From Coleofasciculaceae cyanobacterium (GTDB taxonomy: Bacteria > Cyanobacteriota > Cyanobacteriia > Cyanobacteriales > Xenococcaceae): a DNA stretch of 64,000 nt. The translations under genes and the position numbers were made by a program. The stretch lies in NCBI GenBank assembly GCA_036703275.1, contig DATNPK010000096.1, positions 248,001 to 312,000 on the forward strand, given 5' to 3'. Of the stretch, positions 10,157 to 21,630 are shown piece by piece. Every line of letters starts with the position of its first letter. Positions within the stretch are counted from its first letter, which is position 1. The notes under the pieces are model-generated. The model saw only the letters and a program-made list of their open reading frames with translations, was not told the origin of the DNA and made no database searches.

Positions 10157-11494
10157 TTGGCTACTCGCGCGATCGTCGTTCGTCATGGACAAAGCAACTA
10201 TAATGCACAAAAGATAATTCAGGGTCGTTGTGATAAATCTGTTTTAACTGACCGAGGAATTGCCGATGCGCAACAGGTAGGAAAGGCTTTAAGTGAACTC
10301 AAAATTGATGCCTTTTATTGTAGTCCCCTACAGCGAGCCAAACAAACAGCAGAGACGATTTATCATAGTTTAACTAATCCTCCTGCTTTGCAACCCACGG
10401 AGCAACTAATGGAGATCGATCTCCGTCTGTGGTCAGAGATGAAAAAAGAGGAAGTAATCTCTAAGTTTGCCGATGATTATCGCTCCTGGAAAGAGCGTCC
10501 CCAAGACTTCAAAATGATTATCGAAGGAAGAGAATATTATCCTGTTCGTTCTCTTTATCAGCAGGCACAAGATTTCTGGCGTGAAACCATTATCAAACAT
10601 CAAGATGCAACAATCTTGATTACCGCTCATAATGGCATTAATCGCTGCTTAATTATGAGTGCGATTGGTATTGACATCGATCGCTATCACGACATTCAAC
10701 AATCTAACTGCTGCATCAATATTCTTAACTTCACGGGCGGTTTTGGCGATCCTGTGCAGCTAGAATCCCTCAATCAAACTTCCCATTTGGGTATTCCGAT
10801 TCCTCCAGTTCGCCCATTCCATTCTGGGCCGCGTCTGCTGCTGGTGCGCCACGGAGAGACCAATTGGAACAAAGAATCGCGCTTCCAAGGGATTAGGGAT
10901 ATTGCGCTCAATGATAACGGGCGATCGCAAGGAAGAAAAGCAGGTACGTTTCTCCAGAATGTCCCAATTGACTTTGCCGTCTCCAGCTCGATGCTGCGTC
11001 CCAAAGAAACCGCAGAAATTATTCTCGAACAACATCCTGGTGTCTCATTGGCAACAACTCCAGAATTAATTGAAATTTGTCATGGTTTGTGGGAGGGAAT
11101 GTTAGAAGCAGAAATCCAAGCCGACTATCCCGAACTACTTCAGCAGTGGAAAGATCGACCAGAAACAGTACAAATGCCCGAAGGAGAAAATTTACAGCAA
11201 GTTTGGGATAGAGGAGTTGCCGCCTGGAATAAGATTGTCGCAGCTCATAGCCACGCTGACACACCCCAAACAGGATTGGTAGTGGCCCATGATGCCATCA
11301 ATAAAGTAATTCTTTGCTATTTATTAGGTCTAAAACCAGATAACTTTTGGAACATTAAGCAAGGCAATGGTGCAGTCAGCGTCATTGACTATCCTAACGG
11401 TGCATCAGGCAAACCTGTACTGCAAGCGATCAATCTTACTACTCACTTAGGCGGTGGCAGCATTATCGATAAAACCGCAGCAGGAGCTTTATGA
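10157..11494 (+). CDS. Tandem histidine phosphatase (phosphoglycerate mutase-like) protein
   Basis: 445 aa with two histidine-phosphatase domains. Domain 1 has RHGQSNYN (His10) and domain 2 has RHGETNWN (His232); each also keeps the later acid/His motifs (LITAHNG and VVAHDA). Known: this branch includes phosphoglycerate mutases and metal-independent phosphoserine phosphatases, and the true substrate cannot be read from sequence. The start is TTG at 10157, which gives the family N-terminus MATRAIVVRHG; AGAGGG lies about 8 nt upstream and no ATG fits. It converges on the GGDEF-EAL gene with a shared hairpin between them. Confidence 0.9.
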   Translation: MATRAIVVRHGQSNYNAQKIIQGRCDKSVLTDRGIADAQQVGKALSELKIDAFYCSPLQRAKQTAETIYHSLTNPPALQPTEQLMEIDLRLWSEMKKEEVISKFADDYRSWKERPQDFKMIIEGREYYPVRSLYQQAQDFWRETIIKHQDATILITAHNGINRCLIMSAIGIDIDRYHDIQQSNCCINILNFTGGFGDPVQLESLNQTSHLGIPIPPVRPFHSGPRLLLVRHGETNWNKESRFQGIRDIALNDNGRSQGRKAGTFLQNVPIDFAVSSSMLRPKETAEIILEQHPGVSLATTPELIEICHGLWEGMLEAEIQADYPELLQQWKDRPETVQMPEGENLQQVWDRGVAAWNKIVAAHSHADTPQTGLVVAHDAINKVILCYLLGLKPDNFWNIKQGNGAVSVIDYPNGASGKPVLQAINLTTHLGGGSIIDKTAAGAL

Positions 11495-11524: not shown

Positions 11525-14035
11525 TTAATCCGCGTATAAACAAGCCCGATTTCTCCCCTGTGCTTTTGCTTCATACAGTGCTTTGTCAGCCAGAGCAATT
11601 AGTAATTCAGGACTAGATTCAGAAGAAGGAATTAAACTATGTATTCCTAAGCTGAGCGTAATATAATCGCTAACCAGAGATTTTTGATGGGTAACGTGTA
11701 ATTTTTCAACGTTAACCGCAATCTTGTTAGCTATCTTCAAAGCCTCTGCTCCATCGACATTTGGTAAAATAATGCCAAATTCCTCTCCTCCATATCGAGC
11801 TACTAATCCTTGAGTCGATTCGATGATGAACTCAATCGTTAGAGCAACCTGCTGGAGACAATAATCCCCGATGGGATGACCATAGGTATCGTTATAGAAC
11901 TTAAAATAATCAATGTCACACAAAATGAGAGACAGTGGAGCTTGCTCTTGCCGAAGCTTTTGCCACTCTTGAATTAGATAATTATCAAACCGACGACGAT
12001 TAGCTATCTGAGTCAGACTATCGAGTACACTAAGCTTTTCTAGTTCCCTGTTTGCCAGACTTAATGCTGCTTGTGCCTTTTGCCGATCGCAAATTTCGCT
12101 GTGTAGCTGAGACTCTACCAGGTCAGCGTGTTCGGTGGTATTATCTAGTACTATCTCTAGGTCGGCTTTTTCTAATTTTAATTCTTTTAACTCTTGACGC
12201 AGCTGTTCGATCATAAATATGAGTTGCTCTTGGGCTATTTGTTCATCCAAGAGCGATCGATAATCTTCAGGCTCTACTTTGGGCTGATCGGCAAGATCTG
12301 TCGCGATAATATTTTCCAATATTTCTTTATCTAACGGTTTGGACAAATAATATCCCTGACCATATTCGCATTTTAGAGCCTTCAACTGAGCTAGCTGATC
12401 TACGGTTTCAATACCTTCAGCAATAGTATCCATGTCCAGGTTACGAGCTAAAGCAACGATCGCGCGAACAATACCTAATTTTTCAAGATTATCGCCGACG
12501 CTATTAACAAAAGAACGGTCAATTTTGAGAGTATCAAAAGGAAATTGATGTAAATAGCTCAAAGAAGAATAACCAGTGCCAAAATCATCCAAAGAAAACT
12601 CGATACCCAAAGATTTCAGCTCTTTGAGCATGAGAATAGTATTCTGAGTATCTTCTACTAAAGAACTTTCGGTAATCTCCAGTTTTAAATTATGTGGATC
12701 TAATTTAGTCTCCCGCAAAATTTGTTTGATTTGAGCTACAAAATTGGGTAAACCTAACTGTTTACTAGAAATATTAACGCTAACTTTCCAATCAAGTAAA
12801 CCCCTAAATTTAACTTGCCAGCTACACATTTGTTTGCAGGCTTCTGTCAAAACCCAAAAACCTAGAGGAATAATTAATCCTGTTTCTTCTGCTAGAGGAA
12901 TAAATTCACCTGGAGAGACTATTCCTTTTTCAGGATGTCGCCAACGTACTAATACTTCAAATCCTTTAATTTTATTAGTGCTTAAAGAAATAATAGGTTG
13001 ATAGTGCAGCATGAATTCTTCACGTTTGATTGCCCTTCTCAAGTCATTTTCTAGCTGTAGTAAAGTCAGAGCTTTACCACGCATCGATTGATCGAAAATC
13101 TGATAGTGAGATTTATTTTGTCTTTTAGCATCAGATACAGCTAACTCAGCATCTCTGAGGAGATTTTCTGGTTTGCTATATTCTTTGTTGCCGACTGCAA
13201 TACCGATACTTGCTTCAACAAAAACTTCATATGACTCAAGATTAAAAGGTATGCTTAATTCGCGATAAATTCTTTCAGCAACGTTGGTTGCATAATTCAA
13301 ATGTTCAACATTACTCAATAAAATAACAAATTCATCGTTACCCATACGAGCAATAAAATCGTGCGATCGCAGACAGTTTTGCAATCTTTCAGCAATAGCA
13401 ATTAATAGGTGATCGCCTAAGATTCTGCCCAAACTACTGTTGATTATTTTAAACCGATTTACATCAACAAAAAGAATCACAAATTTATAACCTAACCGTT
13501 GCTGGCAAAAGCTAATTTCTTGTTCGATATACTCTAGCAGTAAATTATAATTAGGTAAGCCAGTTAATTGATCGTAACTAATAGTTGTAGTTAGAGATTC
13601 AGGCTGTAAAACTTCAAATTTTTGAGCATAGGTAGGCTTAACTTTAGGCTCTCGAATAGCTAACAATTTGTGTTGATTTAATTCCTGCCAAAATTCATCC
13701 GATACGTCTTGCCGACTTAGCCACACTTCCATCTCTTTAAATTGCCATTCGTCAATTGAAGCCAGCGTAAAAGGAAGTTCTTCTAGCTTAAAAAACATAA
13801 CTTGCAGTGGCGCATCTTGGATTATGTCGCGAATCCAATCTCCAATTAAAGAAATATTTAGGCGATCGCCAAATATTTGTTCGGCTGCATGATTTAAAAA
13901 TAGACAGTTTTTTTTGGTATCAAAAACAATAGCTGCATCGCAAATATTTTGAATCAGTGGTATTGAGGTAGAGGATAAATTAGCTTCCGTTAACTGAGCT
14001 ACTTCTCCTAGTTTAAATTGCATTTCGTAGAACAT
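11525..14035 (-). CDS. GGDEF-EAL-GGDEF c-di-GMP enzyme
   Basis: 836 aa. Residues about 20-110 look PAS-like. GGDEF domain 1 (about 150-315) has a degenerate GNDEF (232-236) and keeps an RxxD inhibitory site (Arg223-Asp226). The EAL domain (about 325-575) starts with EVL (360-362) and keeps the metal and catalytic residues seen in active phosphodiesterases: Asn421, Glu453, Asp483-Asp484, Lys504 and Glu540. A coiled coil (about 600-670) leads to GGDEF domain 2 (about 670-836) with an intact GGEEF (749-753) and no RxxD site. Inference: a two-way enzyme whose C-terminal cyclase and central phosphodiesterase are both plausibly active, with domain 1 as a regulatory site. It is divergent from the PP2C signalling genes. 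No membrane segment is visible. Confidence 0.93.
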   Translation of the reverse strand: MFYEMQFKLGEVAQLTEANLSSTSIPLIQNICDAAIVFDTKKNCLFLNHAAEQIFGDRLNISLIGDWIRDIIQDAPLQVMFFKLEELPFTLASIDEWQFKEMEVWLSRQDVSDEFWQELNQHKLLAIREPKVKPTYAQKFEVLQPESLTTTISYDQLTGLPNYNLLLEYIEQEISFCQQRLGYKFVILFVDVNRFKIINSSLGRILGDHLLIAIAERLQNCLRSHDFIARMGNDEFVILLSNVEHLNYATNVAERIYRELSIPFNLESYEVFVEASIGIAVGNKEYSKPENLLRDAELAVSDAKRQNKSHYQIFDQSMRGKALTLLQLENDLRRAIKREEFMLHYQPIISLSTNKIKGFEVLVRWRHPEKGIVSPGEFIPLAEETGLIIPLGFWVLTEACKQMCSWQVKFRGLLDWKVSVNISSKQLGLPNFVAQIKQILRETKLDPHNLKLEITESSLVEDTQNTILMLKELKSLGIEFSLDDFGTGYSSLSYLHQFPFDTLKIDRSFVNSVGDNLEKLGIVRAIVALARNLDMDTIAEGIETVDQLAQLKALKCEYGQGYYLSKPLDKEILENIIATDLADQPKVEPEDYRSLLDEQIAQEQLIFMIEQLRQELKELKLEKADLEIVLDNTTEHADLVESQLHSEICDRQKAQAALSLANRELEKLSVLDSLTQIANRRRFDNYLIQEWQKLRQEQAPLSLILCDIDYFKFYNDTYGHPIGDYCLQQVALTIEFIIESTQGLVARYGGEEFGIILPNVDGAEALKIANKIAVNVEKLHVTHQKSLVSDYITLSLGIHSLIPSSESSPELLIALADKALYEAKAQGRNRACLYAD

Positions 14036-14555
14036 CTAATTAACTATAGCTATCAGCTAACGTATATTTTTGGTCTAAAAGCTAATCAAATTTAAGACGA
14101 TCAATCTACTGAGCTTAAACTTCTAGAATATAATCTAAAATATTTAATTCAATTAATTAACGCGGTATTCACAAATTAAAAGAAAAATAGCATTATCGCT
14201 GTGATTTAGATCAGAAGCGGGGATTCCCAATTGTTATCAATTCAACACCATAGAATAAGTTCACAATGGCTCGACAAAATCTTTATCTTGCGATCTTTAT
14301 TTCTGAGGCAAATTTGGGAATCATATGAATAGACTGTTTAGTTTGAATTTTAAGATCGCATTGGTTCAAATAACCTATCCCTCTTTTAGCAAGATCAAAA
14401 TATTGATCGAGCTATTAGCGACAACTATGACTGACGCCAAGAAATTAAAATTGTGGTTTTTTGCTTGAGGTTGCTAGCTACTTTGTTATATCGCTCGAAT
14501 CTAGGGACTATAGCTTATTCAAAGTATTTTCCCAGTTTATTTATAACCATTTTCT
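14036..14555. other. Divergent promoter spacer, c-di-GMP gene and PP2C gene
   Basis: About 520 bp with no ORF worth calling. It must hold the promoters of both flanking operons. The only recognisable site is the CRP-like palindrome at 14200-14215. The rest is AT-rich and otherwise unremarkable. Confidence 0.6.
14200..14215. promoter_or_regulatory. CRP-like palindrome
   Basis: TGTGATTTAGATCAGA matches the TGTGA-N6-TCACA consensus of CRP-family factors (SyCRP1 in Synechocystis) except for one base in the right half. It lies about 165 bp upstream of the GGDEF-EAL gene and 340 bp upstream of the PP2C gene. A chance match is possible. Confidence 0.4.
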
Positions 14556-16268
14556 ATGACCACTGATAGTAAATCTGAGTTATCTCTCATCTCTCGCCTG
14601 CGCCAGGAACTAGGTATGCCAATTAATGCCATAATTGGCTATAGCGAAATAATTATCGAAGAAATAGAAGAGATCGATCGCGATGTTGAATATCTTGGTG
14701 AATTAGAGCAGATTCGAGAGTGTGGAATTGAATTATTAGCCTCAATTAATAGTTTTTTCGATCCAGCAAAGTTGTCTAATAGCCAGCTAAACTTTCAACA
14801 AATTATTAGTAATTCAAAATTAAGAACAGAGTTAGAAAAATCAACTCAACTAGTTATTAATAATTGTCGGCAATTAGTTCCCTTAATCGAGGAAGATTTT
14901 GCAGTTGAGCTAGAGAAAATCAATAGTGCAGCTAATCAACTTTTACAAGAAATCAACTCTTTAACTGAGATTGTGCCTCACTCAGCCAATATTTCTCAAG
15001 CGGCAGATTCCGAAACTGAAGTGGTGATGGATACGAGTTCACTATCGGTTGCCGATCTTGCAGCATCATACACTATTTTAATCGTGGACGATAGCATCAC
15101 CAATCGAGAGTTACTGGCAAATCAGGTAGAAGCGCAGGGTTATAAGGCAGTTACGGCTGCGGACGGCAAACAAGCCATACAAATGATTCAGACAGGAGCT
15201 TATGACTTAATTCTCTTAGACATTATCATGCCAGAGATCGATGGTTATCAAGTCCTACAATGGATTCATAATAGTCCTTGGCAATATATCCCTACTATTA
15301 TGATTTCGGCTTTAGATCAGATAGATAGCGTTGTTAAATGCATCAACATGGGAGCAGCAGACTATCTGACAAAACCATTTAATTTCATATTGCTAAAAGC
15401 TAGATTAGGAGCGTGTTTAGAACAGAAAAGATTGAGAGATCAAGAATCTTCTTATATCAAAAAGCTAGCCAAGGCGAATCAAAAAATTAGCAAGCTTAAC
15501 AATCGCCTTCAGGCTGAAAATACTCGACTCAGTACCGAGTTAGAAATTACTCAGCGTTTACAAACGATGTTGCTTCCTAAGGAAAAGGAACTTAACCAAA
15601 TCAAAGTTTTAGAAATTGCGGGATTTACTGAACCTGCGGCTGAAGTTGGAGGAGACTATTATGATGTTTTTCAGCATCAGGGACGAGTCATAATTGGCAT
15701 TGGTGATGTGTCGGGACATGGCTTAGAAAGTGGAGTGCTGATGCTGATGCTACAGACTGCGGTACGGACTCTAATCGAGAATAACGAAACTAATCCCAAG
15801 CAATTTTTTGAAGTGCTTAATCGTACTATCTACAAAAACGTGCAGCGCATGGATTCTGATAAAAATCTTACCTTATCCTTGGTTGATTACTGCGATGGCG
15901 TTCTCAGTGTCAGTGGTCAACATGAAGAAATATTAATTGTACGTGCTGGCGGAGTAATTGAAAGAATAGACACCGTAGATTTGGGGTTTCCGATTGGCTT
16001 AGAAGAAACAATTGAAGATTTTGTGTTTCAAGCGCAAATTCCGCTACAGCAGAATGAGGTAGTAGTACTCTATACCGATGGTATTACCGAGGCAGAGAAT
16101 CGTTTAGGGGTACATTATGGTTTGAAGCAGCTATGTACGGTGGTTCAGCAAAATTGGCAACAGTCAGCACAGAACATTCGGCAGGCAGTTATTCAAGATT
16201 TGCGATCGCATATTGGTGTAGAACCACTTTATGACGATATTACCTTAGTTGTCTTTAAACGAAAATAA
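14556..16268 (+). CDS. Response regulator with PP2C/SpoIIE phosphatase output
   Basis: 570 aa. The N-terminus (about 8-60) resembles a histidine-kinase dimerisation helix, but the phosphorylated His is Gln17 (RQELGMPINAI). A receiver domain (about 172-295) has acidic residues Asp178-Asp179, phosphoacceptor Asp222 (LLDIIMP) and Lys273. A coiled coil (about 296-340) joins it to a SpoIIE-type PP2C phosphatase (about 350-570) with GGDYYD (365-370), GDVSGHG (383-389) and DDIT near the end, so the metal ligands are there. Known: such proteins dephosphorylate STAS-domain antagonists. The two genes downstream supply the matching kinase and STAS partner. An orphan kinase probably phosphorylates it; none is encoded here. 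Confidence 0.92.
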   Translation: MTTDSKSELSLISRLRQELGMPINAIIGYSEIIIEEIEEIDRDVEYLGELEQIRECGIELLASINSFFDPAKLSNSQLNFQQIISNSKLRTELEKSTQLVINNCRQLVPLIEEDFAVELEKINSAANQLLQEINSLTEIVPHSANISQAADSETEVVMDTSSLSVADLAASYTILIVDDSITNRELLANQVEAQGYKAVTAADGKQAIQMIQTGAYDLILLDIIMPEIDGYQVLQWIHNSPWQYIPTIMISALDQIDSVVKCINMGAADYLTKPFNFILLKARLGACLEQKRLRDQESSYIKKLAKANQKISKLNNRLQAENTRLSTELEITQRLQTMLLPKEKELNQIKVLEIAGFTEPAAEVGGDYYDVFQHQGRVIIGIGDVSGHGLESGVLMLMLQTAVRTLIENNETNPKQFFEVLNRTIYKNVQRMDSDKNLTLSLVDYCDGVLSVSGQHEEILIVRAGGVIERIDTVDLGFPIGLEETIEDFVFQAQIPLQQNEVVVLYTDGITEAENRLGVHYGLKQLCTVVQQNWQQSAQNIRQAVIQDLRSHIGVEPLYDDITLVVFKRK

Positions 16269-16318
16269 CTTTACTCAAAAACCCCAAATATTATTTAACT
16301 AATACATTAACTAACTAT

Positions 16319-16921
16319 ATGAATGCCAGTAATATTGCTCTCGAACAAATATTAGGCGACTTCATTCAAAAATTACCCCCTAGCCAAGAATATTTAATCC
16401 TCAGTTTTTCTCCTGGCTCAATGCCTCTGCGCCAAAGATGGCGCAACAATTGTTTGTCGGCTGATTTTTTAGCCGATTATTTGAGTACCTTTTTTCTGGG
16501 TAACGATAATCAGCAGCCAGATACACAAAAACAGGCAGAAGTTAAAAGTGCCGTTGGCTATATTGCTAATGAACTGTTAGAAAATGGGATGAAATATTGC
16601 GTAGAAACATCTCCTTTCCCCATTAGTATTCAAATTCATTTGAATCCAAACCGCATTGTTTTTCAATTAACCAACAGTATTACTATCCAGCAAACACAAC
16701 AGTTTCAAAATAAAATTAAAACTTTGCTCAATAGCGATCCTAGTGAACTATATTTGGCTCAATTAGAACATAATGCTTTAGAAGAGAACCATGGAGAATC
16801 TAACTTGGGTCTGCTAACCATGCTTAATGATTATGGTGCTAAGCTAGGCTGGAAATTTGAACCATTGTCTCAAAAATCTGCGGAGATAGCCGTCACGACA
16901 ATGGTGCAGCTTGCCATTTAA
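16319..16921 (+). CDS. slr1658-superfamily/SiaB-like regulator kinase
   Basis: 200 aa. The central part has a GHKL-like N-box (VGYIANELLENGMKYC, about 81-96) and the C-terminal part has a weak ATP-lid-like stretch (ESNLGLLTMLNDYG). From its size, motifs and position between a PP2C phosphatase and a STAS-like gene I assign it to the slr1658 group, related to SiaB-type serine kinases. It would phosphorylate the STAS protein and oppose the phosphatase. It starts 50 bp after the PP2C gene and is probably co-transcribed. Family assignment is from memory of cyanobacterial annotation; direct kinase activity is inference. Confidence 0.75.
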   Translation: MNASNIALEQILGDFIQKLPPSQEYLILSFSPGSMPLRQRWRNNCLSADFLADYLSTFFLGNDNQQPDTQKQAEVKSAVGYIANELLENGMKYCVETSPFPISIQIHLNPNRIVFQLTNSITIQQTQQFQNKIKTLLNSDPSELYLAQLEHNALEENHGESNLGLLTMLNDYGAKLGWKFEPLSQKSAEIAVTTMVQLAI

Positions 16922-17047
16922 TTTTTATTTTTTCAAGGCTAAGATGGCTAATTGGGAACAATTATTTAGTCTTAATCATCGGCAATAAAGAGTCGTAATC
17001 TATGATCGTTAGTTAATACATCGGAATACTCATTTTTTAAGACCGCC

Positions 17048-17392
17048 ATGGAGATTAAAACCGAGAATTATCAAGTTAGATATGATGAGACATCTCACAA
17101 CATTGTTTTCGATGGTTCTCTACGTCTTAATGGCAGCGCAGAATACGCCTCAATTTTTGAGTTGCTTAATAACGTTGTTCAACAAGAACCAGAAAAAATT
17201 GTTTTAAATCTCAAAGAATTAAGTTTTCTAAATAGTTCGGGAATTAGCATTTTGTCCAAATTTGTGATCAACGTGCGCAAGCGTAAAAATATTCAGATGG
17301 TTGTAGTCGGCGCGAAAAAGAACCCCTGGCAGGGTAAATCTTTAAAGAATTTACAACGGCTAATGCCTTCTTTGAAGCTGGAGTTGGAATAA
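17048..17392 (+). CDS. slr1659-superfamily STAS-like regulator
   Basis: 114 aa. The fold pattern is STAS-like: IVLNLKELSFLNSSGISIL at about 51-69, with Ser63-Ser64 in the place of the phosphorylated Ser of anti-sigma antagonists such as SpoIIAA. It is the third gene of the set, 126 bp after the kinase-like gene, so a separate promoter is possible. Inference: its phosphorylation state, set by the two upstream genes, controls a partner. That partner could be the nearby GGDEF-EAL protein, as in SiaC-SiaD, or a target elsewhere. Confidence 0.78.
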   Translation: MEIKTENYQVRYDETSHNIVFDGSLRLNGSAEYASIFELLNNVVQQEPEKIVLNLKELSFLNSSGISILSKFVINVRKRKNIQMVVVGAKKNPWQGKSLKNLQRLMPSLKLELE

Positions 17393-21109: not shown

Positions 21110-21630
21110 TTAGCACAACGTGACTTTAGCTCCTTCAAAGCTTGGTAACTCAATCTGTTGGACGGGTAGATCTTCATAAAAAACTGTGTTTAAGAATTGA
21201 CTAATGCAGTTAAGTCTCGCTTTTTTCTTATCATCAGCCTCCACCACATTCCCAGGAGATTTAGGAATATCTGTAGCAGCAAACATATCATCTTTAGCTC
21301 CGGAGTAGTCTACCCATTTTTCCCTGGCTTTTAAATCCATCGGGCTGATTTTCTAGCGTTTTGTCGGATCGTTGATTCGATCTTGAAACCGTTTTTCCTG
21401 TTCGCGATCCGAAGGCTACACCCATTCGGGTGCGAAGCTAGTCCTTTAGGGCAAGCGCTTGGAGCGTAATCGCTTGGTGTTCCTAAAGCCACAACTTTAT
21501 AAACACGGGGATTTAAACATTCACTAATACGCTTGATTGTTCCGCCTTTACCTGCTGCTCTACCTTCAAAGATAACTACAACTTTTGGCGTTGCATCCGG
21601 GCGGGATGATTTAAACAAGAATGTTGTCAA
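21110..21630 (-). pseudogene. Polyphosphate kinase 2 relic with internal deletion
   Basis: Two pieces of a PPK2 are recognisable. The N-terminal piece has VVVIFEGRAAGKGGTIKRI, a Walker A that lacks the Asp of the usual EGRDAAGKGG, and ends at VALGTP. The C-terminal piece reads EQEKRFQDRINDPTKR, then TAG where Trp (TGG) is expected, then KISPMDLKAREKWVDYS to ARLNCISQFLNTV. Roughly 85-90 codons between them, including the Walker B region, are replaced by a 72-bp palindromic repeat. The first about 60-80 residues of a normal PPK2 are also missing. Clearly non-functional. Confidence 0.9.
21404..21475. repeat. 72-bp palindromic repeat inside the ppk2 relic
   Basis: Begins GCGAT and ends ATCGC(TT), so the ends are inverted. 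It holds a hairpin CACCC-ATT-CGGGTG-like at 21418-21432 and a second GC-rich part (CCTTTAGGGCAAGCGCTTGG). It sits exactly where the ppk2 coding sequence is missing. It looks like a cyanobacterial REP/MITE-type element; a related hairpin occurs near 49647. Confidence 0.6.

Follow-up and report, generated by a model that had tools for sequence, protein, structure and literature searches.

We analysed a 64,000-nucleotide stretch of the genome of a Coleofasciculaceae cyanobacterium (assembly GCA_036703275.1, contig DATNPK010000096.1, positions 248,001 to 312,000 of the forward strand; hereafter the window), in which genes for a phosphatase, a kinase and a STAS protein stand next to a divergent gene for a composite enzyme of cyclic diguanylate (c-di-GMP) metabolism. 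As judged from sequence, the locus very probably encodes a Sia-like partner switch, and a portable motif singles out the composite enzyme as the likely output of this switch; by the curated SiaB, SiaC and SiaD models, no protein of the locus is a Sia family member. In the reading that we consider probable, the STAS protein, Slr1659, docks on this motif in the linker of the enzyme, which thereby serves as the output of the partner-switching relay.

Locus organization

The first-pass annotation of this DNA had described a receiver-PP2C phosphatase, an slr1658-type kinase and an slr1659-type STAS protein as consecutive, with a GGDEF-EAL-GGDEF protein divergent from them, and this layout is borne out by the coordinates and by the Pfam and NCBIfam matches. 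Positions are those of the window.

11525–14035, minus strand: composite c-di-GMP enzyme, 836 residues (Pfam: GGDEF twice, EAL once; orthologue alignment); predicted output
11546–12028, minus strand: C-terminal GGDEF domain of the enzyme, signature GGEEF (Pfam, residues 670–830)
12104–12169, minus strand: predicted docking motif for Slr1659, core around KADLEIVLDNTTEHADLVESQL, with His636 (whole model match 12095–12211)
12335–13048, minus strand: EAL domain, signature EVL (Pfam, residues 330–567, 266 bits)
13100–13588, minus strand: first GGDEF domain, degenerate signature GNDEF (by eye; boundaries approximate)
14036–14555: divergent intergenic region between the composite enzyme gene and the relay operon, 520 nt
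14556–16268, plus strand: phosphatase, 570 residues, with HisKA-like segment, REC and SpoIIE/PP2C (Pfam and alignment)
16319–16921, plus strand: slr1658-type GHKL kinase, 200 residues, SiaB-like fold (NF052618, Foldseek)
17048–17392, plus strand: slr1659-type STAS protein, 114 residues, SiaC-like fold (NF047705, Foldseek)
17234–17236, plus strand: predicted phospho-acceptor Ser63 of Slr1659 (N62-S63 invariant; start of helix 2)

Within the plus-strand trio, 50 nt separate the phosphatase and slr1658 genes and 126 nt the slr1658 and slr1659 genes. The 200-residue protein scores 265.3 bits against NF052618 (slr1658_cyano, cut-off 200) and matches DUF6272 in Pfam, and the 114-residue protein scores 163.1 bits against NF047705 (slr1659_superfam, cut-off 100) and 36 bits against Pfam STAS; with both models above their curated cut-offs and the genes adjacent, the two form an slr1658/slr1659 pair. 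Among named slr1659 genes, the four closest (84–92% identity) come from Pleurocapsa, Waterburya, Myxosarcina and an uncultured Pleurocapsa, which suggests that the window derives from a Pleurocapsa-type cyanobacterium.

The 836-residue protein is ordered as a PAS-like N-terminus (Pfam PAS below cut-off), GGDEF, EAL, a coiled-coil-like linker with the motif, and a last GGDEF. By eye, the degenerate first GGDEF is preceded by the residues RSHD, which we take to be RxxD-like, the EAL domain presumably retains its usual catalytic residues, and the C-terminal GGDEF shows no RxxD at what we take to be the I-site position. The last of these domains is predicted from its sequence to be an active cyclase. 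Five full-length orthologues share the order GGDEF-EAL-motif-GGDEF (loci L106, L107, L108, L109 and L131), and three of them (L107–L109) carry GGDEF rather than GNDEF as the first signature.

The first-pass annotation had also proposed checking whether the neighbourhood is conserved across cyanobacteria. The same divergent arrangement of the composite gene and the REC-PP2C, slr1658 and slr1659 genes is found in Pleurocapsa sp. CCALA 161 (L131), the composite gene of a same-genus genome (G198) lies on the slr1658 contig in the same divergent orientation at 11.7 kb, and, as detailed below, the link goes beyond neighbourhood, in that motif and slr1659 co-occur genome by genome. The proposed relay thus withstands the check on co-occurrence. 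Composite gene and slr1658 are on different contigs in three further genomes (G010, G070 and G081), and a fourth (G037) has a shorter motif-GGDEF open reading frame upstream of the cluster and in the same direction.

A discrete motif shared by unrelated signalling enzymes

The coiled linker that joins EAL to the last GGDEF (residues 597–653) holds a helical motif of about 22 residues. Traced from 40 slr1658 neighbourhoods with an iterated profile seeded with window sequences, its relatives are found beside slr1659 on GGDEF proteins, cyclases, PAS proteins and a kinase. The consensus of 37 aligned copies is E-K-x-D-L-E-I-L-L-E-T-T-T-E-H-[SGA]-D-x-[VI]-E-x-[EQ]-L, with the His present in 36 (a fragment from L073 that deviates from the pattern was excluded). 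This linker motif went unmentioned in the first-pass annotation.

Scores of the motif profile are discrete: among the open reading frames of the window and of loci L035–L205, 124 reach at least 30 bits (overlapping loci included) and none falls between 20 and 30, whereas no match exceeds 12.8 bits with 30 column-shuffled control profiles or 7.9 bits with the reversed one. In its own genome the only match at E ≤ 0.05 is the 836-residue protein itself (60.5 bits, E 7.9e-16). By Pfam, 47 motif proteins include GGDEF (15), EAL (4), Guanylate_cyc (10), HATPase_c (9) and PAS (24) domains; with profiles made here, 99 distinct motif proteins divide into class III cyclases (34), GGDEF proteins (23), histidine kinases (20) and others (22), proportions that are biased by the choice of loci. 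Copies from different output classes share 54% identity between −13 and +8, counted from the His, and 9–15% beyond +8; on the N-terminal side the figure is 23–34% from −40 to −14 and 10% before −40. Profiles trained on one class and applied at 20 bits recover the others: the GGDEF-trained profile finds 27 of the 34 cyclases and all 20 kinases, the cyclase-trained profile all 23 GGDEF proteins and all 20 kinases, and the kinase-trained profile all 23 GGDEF proteins and 27 of the 34 cyclases, with 0, 0 and 1 matches, respectively, among 4516 other open reading frames. This cross-class recovery, together with conservation that is highest in the core, indicates that the motif behaves as a movable unit. 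With the motif profile, PDB sequences gave four matches, all weak and rejected here: two to optineurin and one each to a designed coiled coil and a condensin subunit.

Motif and slr1659 co-occur across genomes

In 388 cyanobacterial class genomes, with motif genomes defined at E ≤ 0.001 (n = 127) and slr1659 genomes by a best E < 1e-16 (n = 137, 136 of them over the family cut-off), 124 have both, 3 the motif only, 13 slr1659 only and 248 neither. The Fisher p for this co-occurrence is 9e-82, uncorrected for shared ancestry; the association persists when stratified by family (Cochran–Mantel–Haenszel chi2 168, p 1.7e-38), a test made on the members of the 12 families listed (254 of the 388 genomes) in which kinship inside families remains. 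The motif-only genomes are G028 (8% contamination), G180 and G279 (69% complete). In some genomes the paired genes are unlinked, as in G023 (different contigs) and G052 (one contig, but distant). A single slr1659 over cut-off and a single motif protein, the 836-residue enzyme, are encoded in the genome of the window; a second slr1659 match, at 23 bits, contains five stops.

At the level of loci, a motif gene is present in the fetched stretch at 44 of 80 named slr1659 loci and at 19 of 40 further slr1658 loci. Among the 44, the motif gene lies within 500 nt of slr1659 or slr1658 in 42 and on the same strand in 43, the lone opposite-strand case being the window-like L131. Four of the 80 named records bear non-cyanobacterial names. 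One (L154, Ca. Albibeggiatoa) has slr1658-slr1659-slr1658 and an 808-residue PAS-GGDEF-EAL protein with two motifs, and another (L188, Desulfococcaceae) encodes, adjoining slr1658-slr1659, a kinase-REC protein in which the motif occurs twice. No motif gene was seen at L163 (Ca. Parabeggiatoa), where the locus has just 2.4 kb upstream, or at L133 (named Candidatus Gracilibacteria), which is perhaps a misbinned contig because its cluster looks Pleurocapsa-like.

The motif also stays in heptad register within the coil. From the last motif His to the Asp of DxLT the distance is 15, 22 or 36 residues, all 1 mod 7, in 19 of 19 motif-then-GGDEF proteins (one of the 20 GGDEF rows, L154, was left out for the PAS domains between), and tandem motifs are spaced by 25, 32, 39, 46, 53, 60 or 67 residues, all 4 mod 7, in 41 of 43 cases, with 57 and 64 as the exceptions. 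These lengths are not independent, because few ancestral architectures supply most copies; a spacing of 53 alone accounts for 24 of the 43.

Such a coiled-coil appearance and heptad register, together with the moderate conservation before the core noted above, would also suit a coil that serves dimerisation or signalling only, accompanies these operons and has nothing docked on it. We regard this as quite unlikely, since the near-invariant His and the conserved polar T, E and D are needless for a coil, and slr1659 accompanies the motif in all but three of the 127 motif genomes, in several of them with the genes unlinked.

Predicted folds and phosphorylation site

The Slr1659 model (predicted local distance difference test score, pLDDT, 94.2) has as its best Foldseek match SiaC in the SiaC–SiaD complex (7e6g_F, E 1.1e-4, template modelling score 0.76), and VIA-align gives Z 13.2 with a root-mean-square deviation of 2.3 over 113 residues. 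For the Slr1658 model (pLDDT 84.1) the best Foldseek match is SiaB (6kko_A, E 4.5e-5), with Z 12.7 and a deviation of 3.2 over 154 residues in VIA-align, tied with Usfx (12.9 over 129); rows within one Z unit are counted as ties throughout.

N62 and S63 of Slr1659 are invariant and S64 is 98% conserved in 66 sequences. In the solved Sia complex, described in PMC8457831 (which, like the other papers named below, is cited from excerpts), the STAS-like protein sits on the stalk of the cyclase, binding via its helices 2 and 3; SiaC N67-T68-S69 touch the SiaD stalk and phosphorylation of T68 prevents binding. Slr1659 N62-S63-S64 stand likewise at the start of helix 2, and its helices 2 and 3 bear conserved basic residues (K71, R77, K97, K100 and R104) along with W94, Q95 and N101.

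In 59 Slr1658 sequences N84, E85, L86, E88, N89 and K92, as well as S161, L163 and G164, are invariant, which we take to be the N-box and the G-box. The general features of a GHKL kinase/STAS partner switch, namely kinase boxes and an invariant Ser where STAS helix 2 begins, are thus present, and a PP2C is encoded together with the kinase and the SiaC-like protein, the latter being SiaC-like by fold only.

The curated Sia models all remain below threshold: the 114-residue protein reaches 18.2 bits against the SiaC family PF09345 (gathering score 24.5), the 200-residue kinase 24.2 bits against SiaB NF038262 (cut-off 85) and the 836-residue protein 232.3 bits against SiaD NF038266 (cut-off 290), and the genome has no PF09345 match over cut-off. 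The suggestion of a Sia-like relay with a different architecture, made in the first-pass annotation, accordingly has support for the mode of action, from folds, motif and co-occurrence, and fails for family membership.

Proposed mechanism

We propose that the receiver domain gates the PP2C phosphatase, that the slr1658 kinase would phosphorylate Slr1659 on Ser63, and that the phosphatase would reverse this. Unphosphorylated Slr1659 could then bind the motif in the stalk, the coiled coil that connects EAL with the last GGDEF. Such binding would make the stalk ordered and join the two C-terminal GGDEF domains, the effect that SiaC has on SiaD, and would shift the 836-residue protein away from c-di-GMP breakdown by EAL and towards synthesis by GGEEF. 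Motif, register and co-occurrence bear on this stalk binding indirectly. Class III cyclases and histidine kinases, likewise dimeric enzymes, may be controlled by this switch via the same motif in other genomes.

In its general form, which we favour with some reserve, Slr1659-type STAS proteins would be plug-in regulators, each a phospho-switch docking a transferable motif of about 22 residues and controlling unrelated dimeric signalling enzymes in cyanobacteria and some proteobacterial-type lineages; in the window, such a regulator would flip the composite c-di-GMP protein.

Evidence against docking of Slr1659 and alternative readings

Several observations weigh against this proposal. The SiaD stalk residues named in the excerpts of PMC8457831 are largely basic and the motif is acidic. 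Combined with the basic helices 2 and 3 of Slr1659, this makes the charges look swapped relative to SiaC–SiaD, and the Slr1659 basic residues and the acidic motif may face each other. Among PDB sequences, SiaD is not picked up by the motif profile even at E up to 1.

A partial Mantel analysis of 61 operon triples gives a partial r of 0.52 for motif and slr1658 and of 0.15 for motif and slr1659, with permutations as high in 0 of 2000 (slr1658 given slr1659) and 5 of 2000 (slr1659 given slr1658). After partialling, motif distances thus follow slr1658 better than slr1659, and both genes are present at 54 of 63 motif loci, as would be expected if the motif docked the kinase Slr1658, tethering it to the output enzyme, and Slr1659 acted elsewhere. 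We hold kinase docking to be unlikely nonetheless: where the fetched stretch holds slr1659 and no slr1658, a motif gene is there at 9 of 13 loci, and at neither of the two where slr1658 stands without slr1659, and it is the STAS-like protein that occupies the cyclase stalk in the solved Sia complex (PMC8457831). By analogy with this Sia precedent, the STAS protein is the favoured partner of the motif. Natural slr1658-slr1659 fusions of 326 and 330 residues, in Rivularia sp. MS3 (L170:11466–12446) and an uncultured Calothrix sp. (L194:5662–6654), support the two as partners of each other.

The motif is also missing where slr1659 is present. No motif gene is found in the fetched stretch at 36 of the 80 named loci, some of them on short contigs, and 13 of the 137 slr1659 genomes have no motif match. 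In the 11 of these 13 that were inspected (L208–L216, L051 and L056; G315 and G383 were left out) no motif gene lies near slr1659. Instead, a gene for an MscS-type channel of 543–552 residues directly follows slr1659 at three loci (L213:7755–9413, L214:8258–9889 and L215:7785–9431; genomes G334, G141 and G082), all three scoring above cut-off for PF00924, the mechanosensitive channel family; at the other eight no output was recognised. The output of this motif-less subgroup probably differs.

Finally, VIA-align ties SiaC (Z 13.2) with a classical STAS antagonist (Z 12.7) as the match of Slr1659; given this tie and that of Slr1658, we claim from Z no closer kinship to SiaC and SiaB than to SpoIIAA and SpoIIAB. 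Both the near-equal match to anti-sigma/anti-anti-sigma pairs and the channel genes at L213–L215 are compatible with a partner switch of the classical kind, directed at a sigma factor or an MscS-type channel, with the divergent c-di-GMP gene a chance neighbour. This seems very improbable, however, as the divergent arrangement recurs in L131 and the sole motif protein found in the genome is that same neighbour. We thus retain docking of Slr1659 on the linker motif as the preferred reading.

Phosphatase input

The 570-residue phosphatase matches SpoIIE with 122 bits and REC with 101 bits in Pfam, and HisKA with 21.5 bits, below the cut-off of 26.9. In its HisKA-like segment (14586–14777) the phospho-acceptor His is replaced by Gln, an exchange that the first-pass annotation did not remark on. 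Gln is found in the window, L130 and L131, and His is kept in eight relatives (L126, L127, L128, L132, L133, L156, L073 and L069), all of which have a hybrid kinase with receivers upstream. No hybrid kinase is adjacent in the window or in L131, and the contig of L130 ends there. Nor does the genome of the window hold a close copy of the Myxosarcina HK-REC-REC protein: a search for an orthologue gave two partial matches with 35–36% identity (E ≤ 1e-60), which were rejected. This lineage thus seems to have lost a kinase input while retaining the receiver.

Further loci and neighbouring genes

Compact SiaD-like proteins of about 275–291 residues, with two motifs and a GGDEF, are encoded upstream of slr1658-slr1659 at two loci (L217 in G065 and L103 in G218) and are good small test systems. 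Adjoining the composite enzyme gene in the window, a 445-residue protein (10157–11494) has two histidine phosphatase stretches. Farther away, a 99-residue open reading frame (21331–21630) matches just positions 30–70 of the 229-position polyphosphate kinase 2 family, at 46 bits, and is, by its sequence, a truncated or broken gene.

Comparison with known systems

For slr1658/slr1659 of Synechocystis, no named output was found in the literature passages covered; a link of Slr1658 to iron recovery and to pgr5 expression has been described (PMC7555055). In the open-licence literature, with few subscription papers covered, neither the motif nor a target of Slr1659 was found described. A recognisable docking motif makes target finding a sequence search and offers point mutations, and it names candidate target enzymes in 124 of the 137 slr1659 genomes, unlinked genes included. 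If the proposal is true, the stalk mechanism of SiaC–SiaD would apply not just to one cyclase but also to histidine kinases and cAMP-type cyclases.

HmpU-HmpW-HmpV of Nostoc punctiforme likewise combines a PP2C, a kinase and a STAS protein, its downstream effector being undefined in the excerpts (PMC6495340, PMC8256260); hmpV (Npun_F5169) stands apart from hmpU/hmpW (Npun_R5135/R5134) by locus tag (PMC10581220). HsbA-HsbD and BgrV-BgrR, in which a STAS protein modulates a diguanylate cyclase (PMC8457831), are comparable too; these systems are likened to the relay by description only.

A close parallel is SiaABCD of Pseudomonas aeruginosa, made up of the PP2C SiaA, the kinase SiaB, the phosphoprotein SiaC and the diguanylate cyclase SiaD, which the relay resembles in its parts list and in the predicted folds of kinase and STAS protein. 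The motif of the relay likewise lies in a coil before GGDEF, and in many relatives it is in tandem. The two SiaC sites of SiaD, at S50/Q54 and S82/Q86 (PMC8457831), are 32 residues apart, which, by published residue numbers, is the same register class as that of the tandem motifs. In contrast, the phosphatase input in the window is a REC domain with a HisKA-like segment, and the output is a divergently encoded protein in which an EAL and two GGDEF domains are combined with a single motif.

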